From Candidatus Hydrogenedentota bacterium (lineage in GTDB: Bacteria > Hydrogenedentota > Hydrogenedentia > Hydrogenedentales > CAITNO01), in contig JAAYBR010000073.1 of assembly GCA_012730045.1 (NCBI GenBank), positions 1 through 41,639 on the forward strand: a DNA stretch of 41,639 nt. Direction: 5' to 3'. The notes below the pieces were generated by a model. That model was not told where the DNA came from, searched no databases, and was given only the letters and a program-made list of their open reading frames with translations. A program made the translations under genes and the position numbers. Positions 6,209-22,153 of this stretch are shown here, piece by piece (position 1 is the stretch's first letter; the number at the start of each line of letters is the position of its first letter).

Positions 6209-9200
6209 TCATTTCTCCAGAGACACAAGCATGAGTTTCGGGTCCACAGCGAGCGGGTCCACCTCCAGGGCCTTCTCGAAACAGGCGCGGGCCTGTTCAT
6301 TGTCTCCGAGGCCGAGGTGGCCGAGGCCCTGGAGGTAATGGGAAGACACCCGCAGGTCCTTGCGGGCAAGCTCGCGCTCGAGCAGGAAGGTGCGGCCCGT
6401 GTGCTCCTCCTCCACCGTCACGGTGATGTTGCGGCCGTCCTTGGCGGGGGCCAGCCGCTTTTCGCCGTCCTCGATGAGCTGGCGGAAGCGCTTCTCGATC
6501 TCGTCCGCGTTGTGGCCCAGCTCGCGCGCGGCGAGGGCCTTGAAGTAGCCGATTTCGGGGAAGTCGCCCGCGCCCCAGCCCTGCGGGGGCGTGTAGTCGA
6601 GCATGGCGGTGAAATGGCCGCGCGCTGTCTCGGCGTCGCCGGCGAGGCGCTGGTTGACGCCGAGGTAGTAGTGGGCGATGCCGGTCTTTCCGTCGCGCTC
6701 GGCCTCGAGGTTGGCGGGGAACTCCATCGCCTTGAGGAACAGGGCCCCGGCCTCCCGGTGGCGGCCCGCGTTCATCTCCCCGATGCCCTTTTGCAGGTGG
6801 GCGTCGAACCAGTGGACGTGCGGGTTGAAGGTGGCGCCCTCCTCGATGTGGTAGCGCATGGCGGTGAGGAGTTCGATGGCGCGGTCATACTCGCCCCGGA
6901 AGACCGCCAGCTTCACCTCCATGAGCTGGATGTCCACGATGTCCTTTCCCATTTCCCCGTACTCGGCGAGGAACTCCGCAAGCTGCTCCGGCGTCAGGCT
7001 CGCGTAGGACATGTAGAGGTCCGCCTCGGCGAAGTAGCGCTTCTGCTTCGGGTCGAGGGAGATGGCCGTCATGATGTTGTCCAGCGCCTCCGGGAGCAGG
7101 CCGAGGTGGTTGGCCTGGAGGTAGGCGAGGTTGCGGTGGACGACGGCGTCCTTGAATCCGTTGTCCAGCGCGGCCTGCCAGCAGGCGACCGCCTCGGCGT
7201 GCCGGTAATTGGCGAGCAGGTTGCCCAGCAGGTAGTGCGCCTTCGCGTTCGTGGGGTTCTTGGACAGGGCGAAGCGCAGCGCGCGCTCGGACTCCTCGCC
7301 GTAGGGGAAGCACAGGTCAATGGGCAGGCCGGCTGCCTTCTCCAGGGCAGTGGCCGCCGCCTCTCCCCTGCTCGCGCGGTCCAGATAGAGCGCGTGATGG
7401 TAATGTGTCATCGGGTTCGCGGACAGCGCGGCGTCCGGCGCCGCCGCCGAGAGGCCCATGAGCTCCACCGCTTCGCTGAAGCATCCGGCGGCGGCGTGGC
7501 GCGCCGCTGTCTCGATGTAGTTGTAGGGTTCATTGCGCAGGCAGCGAAAGAGCTGGGTCGCCCACTCCCCCGCCGTCTTCCCCGTGTCGGCGGTGTCGGC
7601 TAGGAGGCGCAGCTCGTTCATCGCGGGGAAGCAGAGCGGGTCCACTTCCAGCGCCTGGCGGGCGGTCTCCGCGGCGGCGGCGGCATTGCCGAGCGTCCGC
7701 AGGACGAGCGCCTTGACGCAGAGCGCCTCGACGTTCTGCGTGTTGGCGCGGACCGCGCGCTCGGCGTTGTCCAGCGCCTTTTCCAGGTTGCCGCGCGCGG
7801 CCTCCGCCTGCGCGGCGAGGGTGTACCCCGCCGAGGTCCACGGGTAGTCCCAGGTGGCGCGGTAGAGCAGCTCCAGCGCGTCGTCGGTGCGGCCCTGCCG
7901 CAGGCGGCACACGCCGAGGTAGAAGAGCGCGGTGGCGTCCTGCGCCTTCTTGTGGTTGTCCGTGACCACACCCACGGCACGCGCGAGGTGCTCCTCGGCC
8001 TTGTCCAGCTCGCCGCGTTTCAGGAACACGAGCCCGATCTGGGTGTTGGCGGGCACATGGTCCGGCTCCAGGGCGAGGGCGGCCGCATAGTATTTCATGC
8101 AGTCGAAGTTGGTGTTTCCAAACTGCTCCAGCTTGAGCCCCGCGTAGAAAAGCTCCTGCGCTGTCTTGTATTCGCGCGGGTCCAGCGGGTCCCGGTACAC
8201 CTCCGGGAACGGCTCGTTTTTCGCGGGCTGCTTCTGCCATGCGAGCAGTTCCCGGCCCTCCGCGTCGAGCACCTGCACCCGCAGCTCCTCCAGGCTCTCC
8301 GCACCGCCCGCAGACGCCTCGCGCTTGTAGGGGTTTTCCGGAGAGAGGTCCGCGGTGTCGGTGAAAACGGTGGCGTCGCCGCGCCGCAGCACGATCTGGA
8401 CGCCTTGGAACGCCGCCGTGGCATTGAGCTGGATCCCCGCCAGGCCCTCTTTCAGGTCCAGGTTGAGGGCGAAGTCGCGGGTGGCCTCCTTGATGCCGTC
8501 CAGCCCCTTGATCCCATAGAGGTACATGTCGCCGTACTTTGTCTCGAAGGGGGCGACAAAGTTGTAGTCCGGCTGGTTGTCCGAGTAGAAGCCCATCATC
8601 AGCTCGGCGTAGGGCCCGTCCTCGTCCGTGAGCTTCGTGTCCCACACCTCCTGCACCTCGTTCTTCCCCCAGTTCCAGAGTTTTTTCCCCTTGAAGATGC
8701 GGTGGTCGCCGACGAGGGCGATGCCCGCGCCCTTTCCGTGGTCAATGCCGGCCATGAAGTCCTGCGCGGTCTTGGTGACAAAGAACGACACGGGCTGGCG
8801 GGTTTCCTTCCACCACGAGAGGTCCTCGCCCTTCGTGTAGTCCACGGACTGGTACACCTGGTTCAGCACGGGCCACCGGGTGAACTCCGTGACGTAGTGG
8901 AAGTTCATCATCTCCACGTCCGGCGGGAAGACAAACTGGTAGCTATCGTTCACATGGACCGCCACGTTGGCGAAGCACAGCGCGGGGTATTCGTAGGGCG
9001 TCACGTTCATGCTCTTGAACGTGATTTTCACGTACGCCTTCCCCGGTTCCAGCGTCATGCCCGTGAGCCAGCGCGTCTGGCTGCGCTTCTCGTACTCGCC
9101 GACCCAGACCGTCTTGCCGCCGTCCGGGTTCTCCACGACCGTGTGGTCCACGTCAATGAGGCTGGTCGCCCGGTGGTGGTGCGGCGTGTTCCACTCCACC

Positions 9201-9592
9201 CCGCCGGAGGTCCACGCGCCGAGGGTGCCGATGAGCGCGGGCTTCACCACGCGGTTGTTGTAGACGATCTGGTAGCCGTTGGTCTTGTCCACGGCGTAGT
9301 ACAGCCGCCCGCCCATCTCCGGCGTGACGCAGAGTTTCAGGTACTCGTTCTCCAGGACGACGGCCCGGTACTCGCGGTCCGCCTTCTCCGCCGACTGCAC
9401 CCCGTAGAACGGGTACGGGTAGACATGCTTTTCCGCGAGCTGCACCTCCTCCGGCCGGAAAAACAGCGGAATCCGGTCCGGCGCCTCCGCCGGATAGGTG
9501 GGGAGCACCATCGTCTCCTCCGACACCGACACCTGCGCGGAGCACAGGGTGCCGGTGGAGACCAGGGCAAGAAACAGCAGCGTCGCGGCCAT
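6209..9592 (-). CDS. Secreted DUF5107 and TPR-repeat protein
   Basis: A 1127-residue protein in which a signal peptide (MAATLLFLALVSTGTLCSAQ) is followed by a DUF5107 domain (about residues 30-360). That domain has a mutarotase-like beta sandwich, with ENEYLKLCVTPEMGGRLYYAVDK and GTLGAWTSGGVEWN as landmarks, quoted here as family-typical. A long array of tetratricopeptide repeats fills about 470-1120, for example the ALEPDHVPANTQIGLVFLKRG and DNEQARACFEKALEVDPLA segments. DUF5107-TPR proteins are common in glycan-degrading Bacteroidetes and planctomycetes. Catalysis is unproven; carbohydrate binding or processing in the periplasm is the reasonable guess. ATG 9592 has GGAAGGA 8 bases upstream and a strong promoter. 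It is the first gene of an operon with the TIM-barrel protein. Confidence 0.88.
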   Translation of the reverse strand: MAATLLFLALVSTGTLCSAQVSVSEETMVLPTYPAEAPDRIPLFFRPEEVQLAEKHVYPYPFYGVQSAEKADREYRAVVLENEYLKLCVTPEMGGRLYYAVDKTNGYQIVYNNRVVKPALIGTLGAWTSGGVEWNTPHHHRATSLIDVDHTVVENPDGGKTVWVGEYEKRSQTRWLTGMTLEPGKAYVKITFKSMNVTPYEYPALCFANVAVHVNDSYQFVFPPDVEMMNFHYVTEFTRWPVLNQVYQSVDYTKGEDLSWWKETRQPVSFFVTKTAQDFMAGIDHGKGAGIALVGDHRIFKGKKLWNWGKNEVQEVWDTKLTDEDGPYAELMMGFYSDNQPDYNFVAPFETKYGDMYLYGIKGLDGIKEATRDFALNLDLKEGLAGIQLNATAAFQGVQIVLRRGDATVFTDTADLSPENPYKREASAGGAESLEELRVQVLDAEGRELLAWQKQPAKNEPFPEVYRDPLDPREYKTAQELFYAGLKLEQFGNTNFDCMKYYAAALALEPDHVPANTQIGLVFLKRGELDKAEEHLARAVGVVTDNHKKAQDATALFYLGVCRLRQGRTDDALELLYRATWDYPWTSAGYTLAAQAEAARGNLEKALDNAERAVRANTQNVEALCVKALVLRTLGNAAAAAETARQALEVDPLCFPAMNELRLLADTADTGKTAGEWATQLFRCLRNEPYNYIETAARHAAAGCFSEAVELMGLSAAAPDAALSANPMTHYHHALYLDRASRGEAAATALEKAAGLPIDLCFPYGEESERALRFALSKNPTNAKAHYLLGNLLANYRHAEAVACWQAALDNGFKDAVVHRNLAYLQANHLGLLPEALDNIMTAISLDPKQKRYFAEADLYMSYASLTPEQLAEFLAEYGEMGKDIVDIQLMEVKLAVFRGEYDRAIELLTAMRYHIEEGATFNPHVHWFDAHLQKGIGEMNAGRHREAGALFLKAMEFPANLEAERDGKTGIAHYYLGVNQRLAGDAETARGHFTAMLDYTPPQGWGAGDFPEIGYFKALAARELGHNADEIEKRFRQLIEDGEKRLAPAKDGRNITVTVEEEHTGRTFLLERELARKDLRVSSHYLQGLGHLGLGDNEQARACFEKALEVDPLAVDPKLMLVSLEK

Positions 9593-9620
9593 GGGGCGGT
9601 TCCTTCCAGGTTGAAGGGGC

Positions 9621-9650
9621 ATTATTCCGGCGGCGGAACGGGGATGTCAA
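9621..9650 (-). promoter_or_regulatory. Strong sigma70 promoter of the DUF5107-TPR operon
   Basis: On the minus strand TTGACA (9645-9650, perfect) lies 18 bases from AATAAT (9621-9626, 5/6), with a predicted leader of about 22 bases. The -35 sits in a 16-base block (9640-9655) that recurs around the -35 of the beta-helix gene. A 6-bp dyad (GTTGCA/TGCAAC, 9671-9690) lies just upstream and could bind an activator. Confidence 0.6.
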
Positions 9651-14956: not shown

Positions 14957-17900
14957 CTAACGATCAATCCCTGCGGGCTTCCGTCCGATGACCCGGGTCC
15001 AGGCCGGGCGGTCGAGGGACTGGAGGTCGCGGCGCGGGTCTTTCCAGGCCTTGGCTGCGGCATCGCGGGCCAGGGCGCGCACTTTCCGGTAGTCGGGGTC
15101 GGTGCGCCCTGTGTAGACCTTCTTCCCGCAGGCGCCGCCGAGGGGCGCGGTGAGGAAGCGGCTGCGACCGGGGCGTTCCAGGTCAATCCAGTCCGTCCGG
15201 CTGATCTTCTCCACCTCATGGCATTCCACGCAGCGGCGTTCGTGGACGCCGCGCAGGGCGGCGGCGAGGGCTTTGTCCTGGGCGGGGTCGTAGGCCGGGC
15301 GTGCGGGACGCTTGTCCACAAAGCGGTCGTGATAGGGCGCGTTGGCGTCTATCCACATGGCCAGCCGCAGCCGCTCGTCGGCGGACAGGCCGACCTCCCC
15401 TTTGTGCGTGGCGTCGTCGAGGGCGGTGAACAGTCTGCTCTTGCGCGCGCCGTAGGCGAGGGGCGGCGTGATGCTGGCATCCTGCGCCCGCGCGGGGGAC
15501 AACGACACGAGCCCGTTCGTGATGATGGTCTCGAAGGCCCGGTTGTAGCCATAGCCGGGGATTTCCTCGTCGTGGGAGGTGAGGCCGCCGGAGAAGTCCA
15601 GCCCGCCCGCCGGGGTGAGGCCGTCGTGGCACCGGACGCAGTGGGCGTCGAGCACGGGCTGGATGTCGCGCAGGAAACTCACGGGCCGGTCCCCCCAGGG
15701 CGCGGGGAGCATGCCGGCCGGGGCCGCCGCCAGGGCCGCGCCGGAGCGCGCGGGCGGCAGCACCTGCGAGCCCGCGCGGGTCTCGTGGCAGCCCACGCAG
15801 CCGCGCAGTTCCCCGGGCTGGAAGCTTATGAACGAGCGCATGCGGCGCAGTTCCAGGCGGTCCTTGTCGAGGAGCTGGAAGTACACCGCCGTGTCGGCGG
15901 GCACGCGGAAGTGGGCGCTGCCGTCCGACTGCACGGGCACGTCGCCGAGGATGCGGACGGGGGTCCAGTTGGTGAGGTTTTTCCACTCCGCGCCGGGGCC
16001 GCCGTAGCGGTGGTCCTCGCCGTAGCGGTGGCCGCCCCGCGCGTTGTCATAGGGCCAGCCGACGGGCTCGGCGACGCGGAGGTAGCGCACGTCCTCCGGG
16101 GCGATCCCCTCGCTGCCCTGGGCGACGTTCTTGATGTGGCATTCCGCGTATTCTTTTTCCGTGTCCACCAGCTCGGGGAGCGCCGTGGGCAGGGGGCGCG
16201 GCCGCAGGGGCACGGGGTCGAAGCACGACAGCGCCGGGTCGCGGTAGATCAGCTCCTTGTTCCCATGCACGTCCACGAGATAGAGGCCGTATCCGGCGGG
16301 CTCGCCGGGGGTGTCGCTGTGGCTGAACGCGGCGAGGAAGGTCTGCTCCGAGAGCGCCCAGGGGGTGCTGTAGAATCCCGCCGGGTCGTCGGTGCCGCCC
16401 TCGGGCACGGGCACGCCGTCCATGCCGCCCTCGGGCGGCAGGAGGCGCGGGCTGACGATGCCGATGCCCTGCGGCTCGTTCACCCCCCGGCCGTGGTCCA
16501 CGAGGATGAGCGGGCCGACGGGGAGGGTGTGGTGGCCCGCCGCGATGGCGACGAGTTTCGTGCTTCCCGGAATGGACCGCGCGTCCTCAACGGCCCACGG
16601 GTTGGGAAAATGCTGCTTGAAGAGCGCGTCTGCCCCGGTGCCGTCGGGGCGGATGATCCAGACGGACTGGATGAGGGCCCAGCTCCGCTCGTGGTACTCC
16701 CAGCGGGTGTAGGCAATGAGGCCGTTGTCGAGGGTGTTGGGCAGGTAGTCCCCGTCCTTGTTGGCGCTCATGCGGCGGATGCCGCTTCCGTCGGGGCGCA
16801 TGACGTAGAGGTTGCAGCTCGTCTCGTCCTTGTCGTACTCGTTGCACTGGAGCGACGTGCCGCAGCGCTCGGAGACGAAGACGATGTCTCCGTTCGGGGC
16901 GTAGGCGGGGTCCAGATCGCTCCACTCGCCGAAACTGAGCTGGCGCAGGAGGTGGTCGCGGAGGCCCAGCTCAAACAGATGGATGGGTTCCTCCTCCCGG
17001 CGGAGGCGGTAACTCTGGGTGCGGTCCAGCCAGCCCTCCGGCGGTTCTTCGCTCCGCGCGCGGGCGTAGCCGAAGACCACCCGGTCCCCCTCGAACCACA
17101 GGTCCATGCCGTGGACATGGCCCGGTCCCAGCGCACCGTTGAGCAGGTTTCGGAGCCCCGCGACGGGCTGGTCGGGGGCGTCCGCGGGGGGCTCGGCCAG
17201 GGCGGCGAAGAGGGGCGCGCCGTCCGTGGACGGCTCCAGCACGCAGAGGTCGCCGCCGGGGCGCGACACCCAGGGCATGTGGTTGAGGCAGATGTCGGGA
17301 TAGGTCTCCTGCGTGTGCCGCTTGAGGAAGATCATGCGGTCGAAATCGAGCAGCGGGTCGGCCAGCACGAGCCCGCGCACGGTCCAGCGGGTCTCCAGAT
17401 AGAGGGCGCGCAGGGCGTCCGCCGGGGTGTCCGCGGGCAGGGCGGCCAGCCGCGCCTCCAGCGCGTCGAGACGCCGCAGGCGTTCGGTGATCTCCACGCC
17501 CTGCTCCTGGAGCCGTGCGGCGAGTTCCCGGCCCCGCCGCAGGTGGGTGGCGGTGGGATACGCGGGCGGTCCGGCGGTCTTGACGGTGGACCATTGACTG
17601 AGACTGCTCTGGTTGGCTGGTTTTCCCAGGGCAATGTTTTCCGCGTCCTTCCCCGCAGCGTACACCTCCACCTCGTCAAGATGGAGGAAGATGGGCGCGG
17701 GACTGGGGATGGTCAGGCGGAGGAACCGCGCGGCCGGCGGCTGGGCCCCAAAGGTCACCGTCAGCGGGGCCGCGCCGCTGATGCCCCCGAAATGCCGTCC
17801 CTGGTTGTCGTGGAGCAGCGTCCAGTTCTTGCCGTCGGGGGAGGCGAAAATCTGGAGCGTGTCGGCGTTGTGCAGGCCCGGGGCGTAGTCCAGCCGGTTG

Positions 17901-18223
17901 AACACCACGATCCGCCCGATCAGCGTCTCCGCGCCCAGGTCCACCTGCCACCACGGATTCGGCTCCTGGCCCGTGTGGAAGGCGTAGGCGCCGTTTTTGA
18001 CGCCGTCGCACGCGCCCGCCGCGTCGGCGGCCGGGGTGAGGGGCTGCCGGAGGCCGTCCAGCCAGTCCTTTTCCACGAGGGCGCGCAGTTCGCCCGCTGT
18101 CAGCATGGCGCGGGACGGCGACGTGAACGCGGGCACGGGGGGCAGCGGCGGGCGGGCGTCCGCGGCGTGGGCGAGGGCGCACAGCAGGGTCAGGACCAAG
18201 GCGGGAATGAGGCCGGTCTTCAC
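14957..18223 (-). CDS. Triheme c-type cytochrome, HZS-alpha-like, with discoidin domain
   Basis: A 1088-residue secreted protein. Signal peptide MKTGLIPALVLTLLCALAHA; F5/8 type C (discoidin)-like domain at about 70-190 (WWQVDLGAETLIGRIVVFNR); a central propeller (DLDPAYAPNGDIVFVSERCG, LYVMRPDGSGIRRMS) resembling the middle domain of hydrazine synthase alpha; and CxxCH heme sites near 809 (CVGCH), 862 (CVRCH) and 998 (CVECH). HZS-alpha-like proteins are common in planctomycete and related genomes that are not anammox, so hydrazine synthesis is not implied. Oxidation of a bound carbohydrate is a possibility only. GTG 18223 has AGGAG 7 bases upstream and a promoter. Its larger paralogue lies directly upstream. 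Confidence 0.87.
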   Translation of the reverse strand: MKTGLIPALVLTLLCALAHAADARPPLPPVPAFTSPSRAMLTAGELRALVEKDWLDGLRQPLTPAADAAGACDGVKNGAYAFHTGQEPNPWWQVDLGAETLIGRIVVFNRLDYAPGLHNADTLQIFASPDGKNWTLLHDNQGRHFGGISGAAPLTVTFGAQPPAARFLRLTIPSPAPIFLHLDEVEVYAAGKDAENIALGKPANQSSLSQWSTVKTAGPPAYPTATHLRRGRELAARLQEQGVEITERLRRLDALEARLAALPADTPADALRALYLETRWTVRGLVLADPLLDFDRMIFLKRHTQETYPDICLNHMPWVSRPGGDLCVLEPSTDGAPLFAALAEPPADAPDQPVAGLRNLLNGALGPGHVHGMDLWFEGDRVVFGYARARSEEPPEGWLDRTQSYRLRREEEPIHLFELGLRDHLLRQLSFGEWSDLDPAYAPNGDIVFVSERCGTSLQCNEYDKDETSCNLYVMRPDGSGIRRMSANKDGDYLPNTLDNGLIAYTRWEYHERSWALIQSVWIIRPDGTGADALFKQHFPNPWAVEDARSIPGSTKLVAIAAGHHTLPVGPLILVDHGRGVNEPQGIGIVSPRLLPPEGGMDGVPVPEGGTDDPAGFYSTPWALSEQTFLAAFSHSDTPGEPAGYGLYLVDVHGNKELIYRDPALSCFDPVPLRPRPLPTALPELVDTEKEYAECHIKNVAQGSEGIAPEDVRYLRVAEPVGWPYDNARGGHRYGEDHRYGGPGAEWKNLTNWTPVRILGDVPVQSDGSAHFRVPADTAVYFQLLDKDRLELRRMRSFISFQPGELRGCVGCHETRAGSQVLPPARSGAALAAAPAGMLPAPWGDRPVSFLRDIQPVLDAHCVRCHDGLTPAGGLDFSGGLTSHDEEIPGYGYNRAFETIITNGLVSLSPARAQDASITPPLAYGARKSRLFTALDDATHKGEVGLSADERLRLAMWIDANAPYHDRFVDKRPARPAYDPAQDKALAAALRGVHERRCVECHEVEKISRTDWIDLERPGRSRFLTAPLGGACGKKVYTGRTDPDYRKVRALARDAAAKAWKDPRRDLQSLDRPAWTRVIGRKPAGIDR

Positions 18224-18245
18224 GGGGAGTCTCCTGTGTCCCGAT

Positions 18246-18274
18246 AGGATAGCGGACCCGCGCGGCGGGGTCAA
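18246..18274 (-). promoter_or_regulatory. Promoter of the triheme cytochrome gene
   Basis: On the minus strand TTGACC (18269-18274, 5/6), a 17-base spacer and TATCCT (18246-18251, 4/6) precede the GTG start by a short leader. The gene therefore need not depend on the upstream paralogue. Confidence 0.55.
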
Positions 18275-18410
18275 TGAACCTGAATCATTGGACAGGAAAA
18301 TATCCAGTCGCGTTTCCAGGAGAAAGAGCTTGTGATTCAGGGGTTCGGGCAACCGCCGCAGGGAATGAACGTGTCACCCGTGTGTTCAGGGGACCGGAGA
18401 CCTTCCGACA

Positions 18411-18509
18411 AGAGGTTGCCGCGTCGGCCGGGGCGGCCTCCTCGCAATGACCGTGGAAACACCCGTCATTGCGAAAGAGCGAAGCGACTGAAGCAATCTC
18501 GTTCCCGCC
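18411..18509. repeat. GAGCGAAGCGA-type inverted repeat, diverged arms
   Basis: CTCGCAATGAC ends the left arm (18411-18451). GTCATTGCGA opens the right arm (18465-18509), which continues with GAGCGAAGCGACTGAAGCAATCTC. The pairing is good near the centre and decays outward, as in old copies of this repeat type. Together with the promoter it accounts for the 330-base gap; no gene is seen there. Confidence 0.65.
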
Positions 18510-18553
18510 ACGATCCGACTCCAGGCATGCCTGTTTCGGCAACTTGGGAACGG

Positions 18554-21500
18554 TCAGTCCACGGGGCCGGGGCGGGGGATGACCGGGGCGTTTTCAATCT
18601 GCGGGCGGACGGCGAGCCAGTCCACGCCCTGGAAGACGGGGTCGGGGATCTGGCGCACCTCCTCGTCGCCGAGGTAGGGGCAGATGGCGTCCACCCAGGC
18701 GATGAGGCGCTGGCGGCTGGTCTCGTCCACCTTCACGCCGTAGTGCTTCCCGCTGGAGACCATCTCCACGAGCGGGCTCCGGTAGGACAGGCTGGTCATG
18801 GGCTCGGGGGTGGCGTAGGCTTTTGGGTCGCGCTGGTCGTAGGCCTCGACCATCATCACGCCGGCGATACCGAAGCCCGGTTCGGGGTTTTCCGGCGGGG
18901 TGTACGGCGCGCCCCAGGCCGGACGGCCGATGAGGGTCATGTAGGGCTCCGAGAAGCTGGGCGGGCTGGGCCGCTCGGTGGTGTCGAAGACCTTGCGCCC
19001 CTCCCCTTCCCCCTCGTGGCATTCGGCGCAGTAGCGGTCGAGCAGGGGCCGGACATAGCGGGCGTAGCTCACCGTGGCGTCCTTCCACGGCGGCGGGGTG
19101 ATGGACCGGGGAGCGGCGGCGGTGGCCAGGGCCTTGGCCGCCACCTGCGGTGTCCGGCTGTGGGATTCGTGGCAGCCGAGGCAGCCCCGGCTCTCCCCCG
19201 GCATGACCCCCACGAAGCTGCGCATGGTCTGGAGGGCGCGGAAGTCGCCGTCGAGGAGCTGGAAATGGAGGGCCTGCCCGGCGGGGGCCTCGAAGGAGAC
19301 CGAGCCGTCCTCCTCGATGGGCACGGTGCCGATGATCCGCTTGACGCCCTCCGACTGCACGGCGGAGACCACGGGCCCGGTGGAGATGTACGGGCGCTTG
19401 TGCCAGTAGGTGTAGGTCTTCGGGTCAATCTGGAGGATGCGCAGGTACTTCGCCTTCCCGCGCAGCGCCTCCGGGGCGTTCTGGTAGACGTTGTTGCTGT
19501 AGATGACGCCGGGCTTCGGGGCGCCCCGGTTCTCCGCCGTCGGCCAGGCCACGTGGTCCGCCAGCACGGGCGGCACGGGCCGCGGCTTCAGGGGCATGGC
19601 GTGAAAGACGTTGTGGACGCCCTCGTAGACCAGCTCCCGGTTGCCGTCCACGTCCATCAGGTACAGGCGGAATTTGCCGTCCCGCTGGGCGGACACTAAA
19701 AAGTCCTTCTCGCTGAGGGGATAGGGCGAGTAATAGGCGGGGTAGCTCCCCGAGGCGTGGTAGCGGGGCGACTCCACGGGGTCCACGGGGCCGTTGCCGG
19801 ACTCCGGCCATTCGACATCGGCGGTGACCTTTGTGAGGCCGTCGGGGAAGTTGAACCCCTTGTCGGGGTCCACGATGCCGACGGACCCGGCGAACCAGTC
19901 GTGGTGCGCGCTGCCGGTGAACAGGACGCGGCGGCTGCCGGGGATGGCGCGGGCGTCCTTCATGAGGTCCGGCCACACGCTCTGGTTGCCCCAGAAGGTG
20001 ACCGCCTGCGTTCCGTCGGGGTGGGAGGTCCAGAGGGACTGGGCGCGCCAGAGCGGCTTGTCGGTGTACTCCCAGCGGGTGTAGACGACCCGCCCGTCGT
20101 TCATCACCGACGGCAGGTAGTCCGGCTCGTTGCTGTGGGAGATGATGTAGAGGTTCCGCCCGTCGGCGTCGGCGCGGGCCAGTTCGAAGGAGTTGGTCGG
20201 CGGCATGCACCGGACGTAGTTGTTGCCCCGCGTGGTCGGGAAGACAATGTGGCCGTCGGGCGTGTAGACGGGGTCCACGTCGTCGTAGGGGCCGTCGGTG
20301 AGCTGCCGCAGGCCCGAACCGTCCACGTTGATCTCGTAGAGGTGGAACGACTTCTCATTGTGCGGCTTGAAGCAGAAGAGGACCTTTTGCGCGTCGAAGG
20401 ACAGGTCAGGCCGCCAGAAGGACCCGTGCAGGGGCGCCTGCGGCATGAGCTGGCGCACGTTTCCGCCGGGGTGCAGCCCCTTCAGCGCGAGGAGGCGTCC
20501 GCCGGGCACGGCCATGTATCCGAGGCGGTGGCGGGTCTCATGCCGCCATTCGGAGCCCTGCGGGTACGGCATGTCCACCAGCAGGATTTCATCGAAGTCC
20601 AGCAGGGGGTTGCTGAACAGAAGGACGCGCTTGGCTTCCCGGACCGCCAGATAGAGGTCGCGCTCGTCCCCTTTCCCCTGCGCGGCTCTTCGTTCCAGAG
20701 CCGCCAGTTCCGCCAGTTCCCTGGCGTGGTCGCCCGGGATGCGGGCGGCGAGGTCGCGGGCCCACTGGATTTCCTCGCGGATGCGCGTCTTGAGCGGAAC
20801 GCCCTCCGCCTGGTGCATCCAGTCCCGCACCAGGGCGTCGCGGGCCTCCTCCGGCGTGAGGGCGCGGGTCTCGGGGGTTTCCGGGGTGACAAACGGCGCG
20901 ACGGGCTCGCTGACGCGGGGGCGGAAGGCGACCCTCGGCCCCATGGCGAGCACCAGCTCCAGCCACTCGGGGGAGGTGTGGGCGGCGTCCCCCTGCGCGG
21001 CCAGGGCGTCATACCTCGCCTTCAGGGCGTCGGCCTCGCGCCACTGGTCCCGCGCTTCCGGGGTCTGGCGGGACCACTGGTCCTCCGTGAGGGGCTTGTA
21101 TTCCAGGAGCAGCTCCGCCAGGGCGGCGGCGCGCTCCACGAGCACACGGTTGTCGGGGTCCCGCAGGCAGGCCACCGCGGGAACGCCCGCATAGTCCGCA
21201 AAGGCCGCGCATTCCTCCGGGAAATCCGCCCGGAGTCTTCGGGCCAGCGCGTTTTGCAGGTCCGCGTCCATCGGCGGCGCGGCGGAGGTGATTCTTGAGC
21301 GGACATCCGCGAAGGTTTCCGCAAAGGAGTCCCGCCGGGTGTAGACGGCCGCCGCCGCGGCGTCCAGGCGCGCCGTGCGGGCCGCCAGCAGGTCGTTTCC
21401 GTGGGTGAACAGGGCGCGAATGTCGGAACGGGAGAGGGCCCCGTTGTAGATGCGCAGGTCGTCCATCTCGCCCTGGAAATGCTCGTTGGTTCCCCCGCTG

Positions 21501-22153
21501 GAACCGATGAAGGCGGGCTGGCCATGGGCGGAGGCGATCCGGCCCCGGCGTTCCAGGGAGCCCCGTTCCTTGCCGTCAAGGAAAACCCGCAGAAAACGTC
21601 CGTCGAAGGTGGCCGCGCAGTGGTGCCACGCGCCGTCCAGCACGGCGCCCGGGTCAACAGCCGCGTCGCATTCCATGTACCCGCCCACGTTGAGGCCGAA
21701 GGAGAGGATTTCCCCGCCCTGCTGGAACGAGAACAGGATGCGGTCGTCCCCGTTCTCCTGGCGGAAGAGTTCGCGGTATCCGCCGAGGTCCGACGGGCGC
21801 ACCCACACGGAGAGGGACAGGGCGCGCATGCGGGGCTGCCCAAAGGCGGGCACACGCAGGGCGTGGGTGTTCTGGAGAGCGACGGCATCGCCGTAGACGC
21901 CCCGGCCCGCCGCCATGCCGCCGGTCGCCTGCGCGGCGAGCTCCGCGCTTCCCGACACATCGGAAAGAACGCCCTCCGCAGCGCCGCTGTCAAAGGTCCA
22001 GTGCGCGAGGAGGGGCGTGTCGAGGGACGGCGGGGTGTCCGCAGCGGGCTCGCCAAGGGCGGCGCAGGAAAGGAGGACGGCTAGGGCCGCGCAGGGAATC
22101 CAGGAGGGGTGTTTGGAAGTCATCATTGCGTACCGCCCAAGTGTTTCGTCCAT
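18554..22153 (-). CDS. Diheme c-type cytochrome, HZS-alpha-like, with LamG domain
   Basis: A 1199-residue secreted protein, paralogue of the next gene downstream. A hydrophobic signal with a possible lipobox (AVLLSCAALG) is followed by a LamG/concanavalin-like domain at about 45-250 (LLAHWTFDSGAAEG, LSLSVWVRPSDLGGY, GEMDDLRIYNGALS). A coiled segment and the propeller of the hydrazine-synthase-alpha-like type come next (VDPVYTPDGHIVFPTTRGNN). Heme sites are CLGCH near 991 and CAECH near 1042. ATG 22153 has GGAGG 11 bases upstream; ATG pairs at 22126/22123 lack one. The different N-terminal binding domains of the two paralogues suggest different targets. The redox partner and reaction are unknown. 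Confidence 0.86.
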   Translation of the reverse strand: MDETLGRYAMMTSKHPSWIPCAALAVLLSCAALGEPAADTPPSLDTPLLAHWTFDSGAAEGVLSDVSGSAELAAQATGGMAAGRGVYGDAVALQNTHALRVPAFGQPRMRALSLSVWVRPSDLGGYRELFRQENGDDRILFSFQQGGEILSFGLNVGGYMECDAAVDPGAVLDGAWHHCAATFDGRFLRVFLDGKERGSLERRGRIASAHGQPAFIGSSGGTNEHFQGEMDDLRIYNGALSRSDIRALFTHGNDLLAARTARLDAAAAAVYTRRDSFAETFADVRSRITSAAPPMDADLQNALARRLRADFPEECAAFADYAGVPAVACLRDPDNRVLVERAAALAELLLEYKPLTEDQWSRQTPEARDQWREADALKARYDALAAQGDAAHTSPEWLELVLAMGPRVAFRPRVSEPVAPFVTPETPETRALTPEEARDALVRDWMHQAEGVPLKTRIREEIQWARDLAARIPGDHARELAELAALERRAAQGKGDERDLYLAVREAKRVLLFSNPLLDFDEILLVDMPYPQGSEWRHETRHRLGYMAVPGGRLLALKGLHPGGNVRQLMPQAPLHGSFWRPDLSFDAQKVLFCFKPHNEKSFHLYEINVDGSGLRQLTDGPYDDVDPVYTPDGHIVFPTTRGNNYVRCMPPTNSFELARADADGRNLYIISHSNEPDYLPSVMNDGRVVYTRWEYTDKPLWRAQSLWTSHPDGTQAVTFWGNQSVWPDLMKDARAIPGSRRVLFTGSAHHDWFAGSVGIVDPDKGFNFPDGLTKVTADVEWPESGNGPVDPVESPRYHASGSYPAYYSPYPLSEKDFLVSAQRDGKFRLYLMDVDGNRELVYEGVHNVFHAMPLKPRPVPPVLADHVAWPTAENRGAPKPGVIYSNNVYQNAPEALRGKAKYLRILQIDPKTYTYWHKRPYISTGPVVSAVQSEGVKRIIGTVPIEEDGSVSFEAPAGQALHFQLLDGDFRALQTMRSFVGVMPGESRGCLGCHESHSRTPQVAAKALATAAAPRSITPPPWKDATVSYARYVRPLLDRYCAECHEGEGEGRKVFDTTERPSPPSFSEPYMTLIGRPAWGAPYTPPENPEPGFGIAGVMMVEAYDQRDPKAYATPEPMTSLSYRSPLVEMVSSGKHYGVKVDETSRQRLIAWVDAICPYLGDEEVRQIPDPVFQGVDWLAVRPQIENAPVIPRPGPVD

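Follow-up and report, generated by a model that had tools for sequence, protein, structure and literature searches.

Two neighbouring genes encoding homologues of hydrazine synthase alpha in a Candidatus Hydrogenedentota genome

Organisation of the locus and distribution of its genes

The window, which is the whole stretch of 41,639 nucleotides that was analysed, contains two neighbouring genes (A and B) that are separated by 330 bp and are both carried on the minus strand (Table 1). An earlier note on this DNA gave the positions and sizes of the two open reading frames, their front domains, and their numbers of CxxCH sites (three and two, respectively), and our analysis confirmed each of these features. 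For A, the 1088-residue form begins with the GTG codon at position 18223, which has an AGGAG motif upstream, whereas the open reading frame with a TTG start reaches position 18352. In the TTG numbering, the CxxCH sites of A are located at residues 852, 905 and 1041, while those of B are located at residues 991 and 1042.

Table 1. Features of genes A and B, with positions numbered from the first nucleotide of the window.
Feature	Position	Strand	Details
Gene A, 1088 aa	14957..18223	minus	signal peptide, discoidin front, helical spacer, beta-propeller, HZS_alpha domain, three CxxCH
A: F5/8 type C (discoidin) domain	17702..18025	minus	2.9e-12
A: Cys503 of propeller, invariant	16844..16846	minus	alignment
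A: HZS_alpha domain PF18582	15782..16012	minus	8.1e-23, 81 bits
A: CxxCH 1, equivalent to HZS heme alpha-I	15785..15799	minus	
A: CxxCH 2, equivalent to HZS heme alpha-II	15626..15640	minus	
A: His983, predicted distal ligand of heme II	15404..15406	minus	sequence alignment
A: CxxCH 3, within C-terminal extension	15218..15232	minus	
Gene B, 1199 aa	18554..22153	minus	signal peptide, LamG front, helical spacer, propeller, HZS_alpha domain, two CxxCH
B: Laminin_G_3 (LamG) domain	21404..22021	minus	7.3e-27; fold match to AbnA domain 4, TMt 0.76
B: beta-propeller	19574..20608 (approximate bounds)	minus	~74% mean pairwise identity among orthologues
B: Cys649 of propeller, invariant	20207..20209	minus	alignment
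B: HZS_alpha domain PF18582	19166..19459	minus	2e-23, 83 bits
B: CxxCH 1, equivalent to HZS heme alpha-I	19169..19183	minus	
B: CxxCH 2, equivalent to HZS heme alpha-II	19016..19030	minus	
B: His1137, predicted distal ligand of heme II	18743..18745	minus	aligns <=1 residue from HZS alpha-His772

The two proteins share 32% identity over their cores and fall into separate clades of a FastTree tree, indicating that they are distant paralogues that did not arise by a recent duplication. Orthologues of A (62-93% identity) are present in 8 of the 20 relatives from the same order that were searched, where they reside on contigs other than those carrying B. Thus, the tandem described earlier exists in the window but is a local arrangement that is not conserved in relatives. 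A conserved operon of A and B was ruled out, given that the orthologues are unlinked elsewhere and that the neighbours of B vary. The same lack of linkage leaves the earlier proposal of an undescribed system unsupported if this is taken to mean a dedicated two-gene system. The gap between the genes (18224-18553) carries an apparent palindromic repeat (CGCAATGACGG...TCATTGCGAGGAGGCC), and a gene on the same strand at 6209-9622 of the window encodes a protein of 1137 residues with DUF5107 and TPR domains.

Orthologues of B at 48-69% identity were retained at 80 of the 220 loci found. The closest are from Candidatus Hydrogenedentota, and others are from metagenome-assembled genomes (MAGs) labelled Planctomycetota, Verrucomicrobia, Kiritimatiellia, Lentisphaerae and Armatimonadetes, several of which appear from their isolate names to originate from termite guts. 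In nearly all loci, the match begins inside the LamG domain. Six orthologues (L019, L021, L025, L028, L037 and L063) are 200-350 residues longer than the others.

The host genome carries 15 HZS_alpha genes, including A and B. Discoidin fronts are present in two of the other 13, and a C-terminal FGE-sulfatase domain in three. Another three-heme gene (L114:5433-10454, host contig C84) is directly preceded by a cytochrome c assembly gene (PF01578).

Relationship to hydrazine synthase alpha

Hydrazine synthase (HZS) is the hydrazine-making enzyme of ammonium-oxidising bacteria and, to our knowledge, is considered almost exclusive to anammox bacteria. The matches of A and B to PF18582 far exceed the cut-off of 26.6 bits. 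Moreover, a profile built from the 15 paralogues of the host, when compared by hmmsearch with PDB sequences, yields HZS alpha (5c2v) as its top match (2.2e-42). The predicted structure of B (pLDDT 87.9) likewise has 5c2v_A as its top Foldseek match (1.5e-25, 838 columns, TMt 0.62). The same chain is the top match for the weak, low-confidence model of A (4.6e-24, TMt 0.61), which was built from a thin alignment (pLDDT 61.5) and is too weak to judge the discoidin front. The likeness to HZS alpha, which had been assigned earlier to a propeller-like middle domain, therefore stands and extends over the whole core in both sequence and fold. However, PF18582 is not the propeller, but a beta-rich block that follows the propeller and ends in the first CxxCH. 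In addition to the whole-core fold and PF18582, A and B share with HZS alpha from Kuenenia stuttgartiensis (5c2v/5c2w) two CxxCH sites in the same order and place, and a distal His near alpha-His772.

Both of these CxxCH sites are invariant among the 15 host paralogues and 54 aligned homologues, the latter comprising 49 B orthologues and five other members. The same is true for the propeller Cys (C649 in B, C503 in A). The profile alignment holding Cys649 of B does not extend to the HZS zinc ligand Cys303 in either of two profile searches. The predicted distal His of heme II (H1137 in B, H983 in A), which in the sequence alignment lies no more than one residue from alpha-His772 in both proteins, is found in 15 of 15 paralogues and 51 of 54 homologues, and both an HH pair and a Met upstream of the first CxxCH (residue 977 of B) are near-invariant. 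The third CxxCH of A is retained in all A orthologues that cover the region. Homology to HZS alpha and strict conservation of the heme sites, on which the earlier reading of these proteins depended, are therefore both borne out.

The heme alpha-I site reads CLGCHESHSR in B and CVGCHETRAG in A. Neither carries a Tyr at the position of the alpha-Tyr591 ligand, which in HZS alpha is located four residues after the CxxCH His. This absence makes hydrazine synthesis unlikely, and judging from these residues A and B probably do not make hydrazine. The two proteins also differ from HZS alpha by their extra N-terminal domains, helical spacer and many paralogues, by the third heme of A, and by scores (38.5 and 53 bits) that are far below the NCBIfam HZS equivalog cut-off of 800 bits.

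Homologues of HZS alpha outside anammox bacteria were reported in 2025, and the Tyr ligand of heme alpha-I is likewise missing from others of these, according to PMC12758564. The non-anammox HZS-like clusters (clades I-IV) described there resemble A and B in that their alphas lack Tyr591, and they often include an adjacent fused beta-gamma gene. In contrast, clade I is described in the same text as lacking alpha-His772, whereas a His is conserved close to this position in the family of A and B.

A candidate beta-gamma partner

The beta and gamma genes of the HZS complex are located in the same cluster as alpha, whereas no beta-gamma gene is present in the window or near A or B in the host. A single fused beta-gamma homologue (G000:C31:113518-115383) is located on another contig of the host genome, where it adjoins two other alpha genes. 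It consists of a propeller and a MauG/peroxidase-like diheme domain, and it matches the beta and gamma chains of 5c2v at 1.8e-35 and 1.1e-23, respectively. Judged by spacing only, it has no Cys around the site where a counterpart of gamma-Cys165 would be expected.

The main new evidence is the linkage between alpha and beta-gamma genes. Among 20 genomes, including that of the host, beta-gamma is present in 14 of 15 that carry alpha and in none of five that do not (Fisher 4e-4), the one alpha-positive exception (G013) having no beta-gamma match at 1e-25. Relatives mostly carry one beta-gamma copy per 4-18 alphas. Across several phyla, beta-gamma is found in 48 of 50 B-bearing genomes compared to 19 of 146 other Planctomycetota (Fisher p ~1e-27), in a comparison that ignores kinship, scores controls on 8 candidates per genome versus 25, and involves sets of different phylum make-up. 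Alpha genes from several clades are neighbours of 11 of 20 beta-gamma genes. B directly adjoins beta-gamma in three contigs that resemble termite-gut MAGs (L077, L080 and L082), while no A orthologue is directly beside beta-gamma among the loci examined.

This co-occurrence and adjacency suggest that a partner is shared. We assign a probability of roughly one half to the explanation that A and B are secreted, exchangeable alpha-type subunits of HZS-like heme complexes that work with a common fused beta-gamma protein. Each alpha would supply a beta-propeller, a heme-I site, a second heme whose distal His is conserved, and an N-terminal binding domain of its own, to which A would add a third heme. 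A single beta-gamma module could serve several such alphas, with the front domain deciding where the complex docks and the hemes forming an electron path that joins the docked substrate or partner to the diheme site of beta-gamma. The observed basis is the fold, the conservation of heme motifs, the number of paralogues, and the linkage of alpha and beta-gamma genes, both across genomes and locally. From these we infer a physical complex, the exchangeability of its alphas, the direction of electron flow and the nature of the ligand. The cytochrome c assembly gene beside the three-heme paralogue is consistent with this explanation. However, the distance of beta-gamma from both A and B in the host, the lack of adjacency for A orthologues, the alpha to beta-gamma ratios of up to 18:1, the exception of G013, and the unequal scoring, phyla and kinship of the control genomes all weigh against it.

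More tentatively, these proteins may represent a plug-in enzyme class, present in several phyla, in which a scarce HZS-like beta-gamma diheme module is common to many alphas, each with a recognition front (LamG or discoidin) or a fused FGE-type domain, and carries out non-anammox heme chemistry on docked polymers. If so, such heme chemistry would extend across many uncultured bacteria. A widespread modular alpha-beta-gamma scaffold with exchangeable fronts would also reveal a possible function of the ancestral complex. The partnership with beta-gamma makes the idea directly testable.

Alternative functions and comparison with known systems

It is also conceivable, but doubtful, that the fronts bind glycans and that the hemes provide a route for electrons, either in oxidative attack or in the respiration of sugar-derived electrons. 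Structure comparison shows a likeness between the LamG front of B and domain 4 of the arabinanase AbnA, and this front keeps conserved polar residues. Going by fold resemblance and these residues, the front domain may bind carbohydrate, and a glycan is a possible target for A and B. The window also contains rhamnosidase, GH32, GH120-like and sulfatase genes. The number of HZS_alpha genes correlates with that of sulfatase genes in the host's family (rho 0.81, or 0.63 after genome size is taken into account, permutation p 0.014), but the correlation vanishes over the whole order. Polysaccharide genes do not recur beside B (79 loci), a sulfatase is present at 5 of 80 B loci, and none occurs in the 196 kb of sequence that surrounds the other 13 host paralogues. 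Thus, no recurrent sulfatase or glycoside hydrolase partner was found across B loci and the surroundings of the host paralogues, and the specific link to polysaccharide genes drawn in the earlier note is unsupported. In addition, the architecture of B is constant over phyla and habitats, unlike that of substrate-specific carbohydrate-binding modules (CBMs). The host has no heme-copper oxidase (COX1), and therefore the oxidative glycan attack envisaged in that note looks unlikely in its O2-driven form, although a cytochrome bd gene is present.

A related case is that of the planctomycete-specific cytochromes PSCyt1-3 with CBM domains (PMC5615132). Like A and B, these are paralogue-rich PVC cytochromes, some of which are fused to LamG or discoidin domains, and their carbohydrate role is a proposal only (PMC5615132). 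However, their heme domains differ from those of A and B, and PSCyt1 (PF07635) has no match in the host genome. This domain is abundant in two relatives with few or no HZS_alpha genes, and its trend against HZS_alpha over the order is not significant.

Somewhat less probable still is that A and B are stand-alone secreted multiheme cytochromes for respiratory or extracellular electron transfer, in which the alpha fold is only a heme scaffold and the co-occurrence with beta-gamma reflects common lineage and habitat. Such a relay would agree with heme I lacking its Tyr ligand and with an almost invariant Met upstream of the first CxxCH that could serve as an axial ligand, as well as with the many paralogues and the distance of beta-gamma from A and B. 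However, core conservation (~74% in the propeller) is far above what is expected for a passive relay, the invariant Cys and the conserved His-His motif also speak against it, and beta-gamma co-occurs in several phyla and directly adjoins B. Finally, A and B are most improbable as alpha subunits of a genuine hydrazine synthase or of a different enzyme that forms N-N bonds, despite the 5c2v-like fold and heme order and the beta-gamma homologue in the genome, given the low equivalog scores (38-53 bits), the lack of the Tyr591 and, by spacing, gamma-Cys165 equivalents, and the argument that non-anammox homologues are unable to make hydrazine (PMC12758564).

The observation of A and B is real and well conserved, and relatives are already known. 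LamG domains and carbohydrate are not mentioned in the main text of PMC12758564, and FGE fusions, discoidin fusions and expanded alpha sets were not found in its available text. Literature on Hydrogenedentota and on HZS homologues in Verrucomicrobia or termites yielded nothing on these proteins. Within these sources, as far as their text is available, we found no earlier description of the front-domain fusions or of the pattern of many alphas and few beta-gammas.

Two further observations concern the surroundings of beta-gamma genes. The alphas with an FGE-sulfatase (SUMF1-like) C-terminus, represented in the host by L104:6159-9797, L105:14005-17244 and L106:8121-11999, are frequent beta-gamma neighbours. 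A RidA-like (L-PSP, chorismatase-like) gene (L105:8275-9387) adjoins beta-gamma in host contig C31 and is also present at 6 of 20 beta-gamma loci (L145, L146, L149, L152, L153 and L160), where it might be involved in handling a reactive product.
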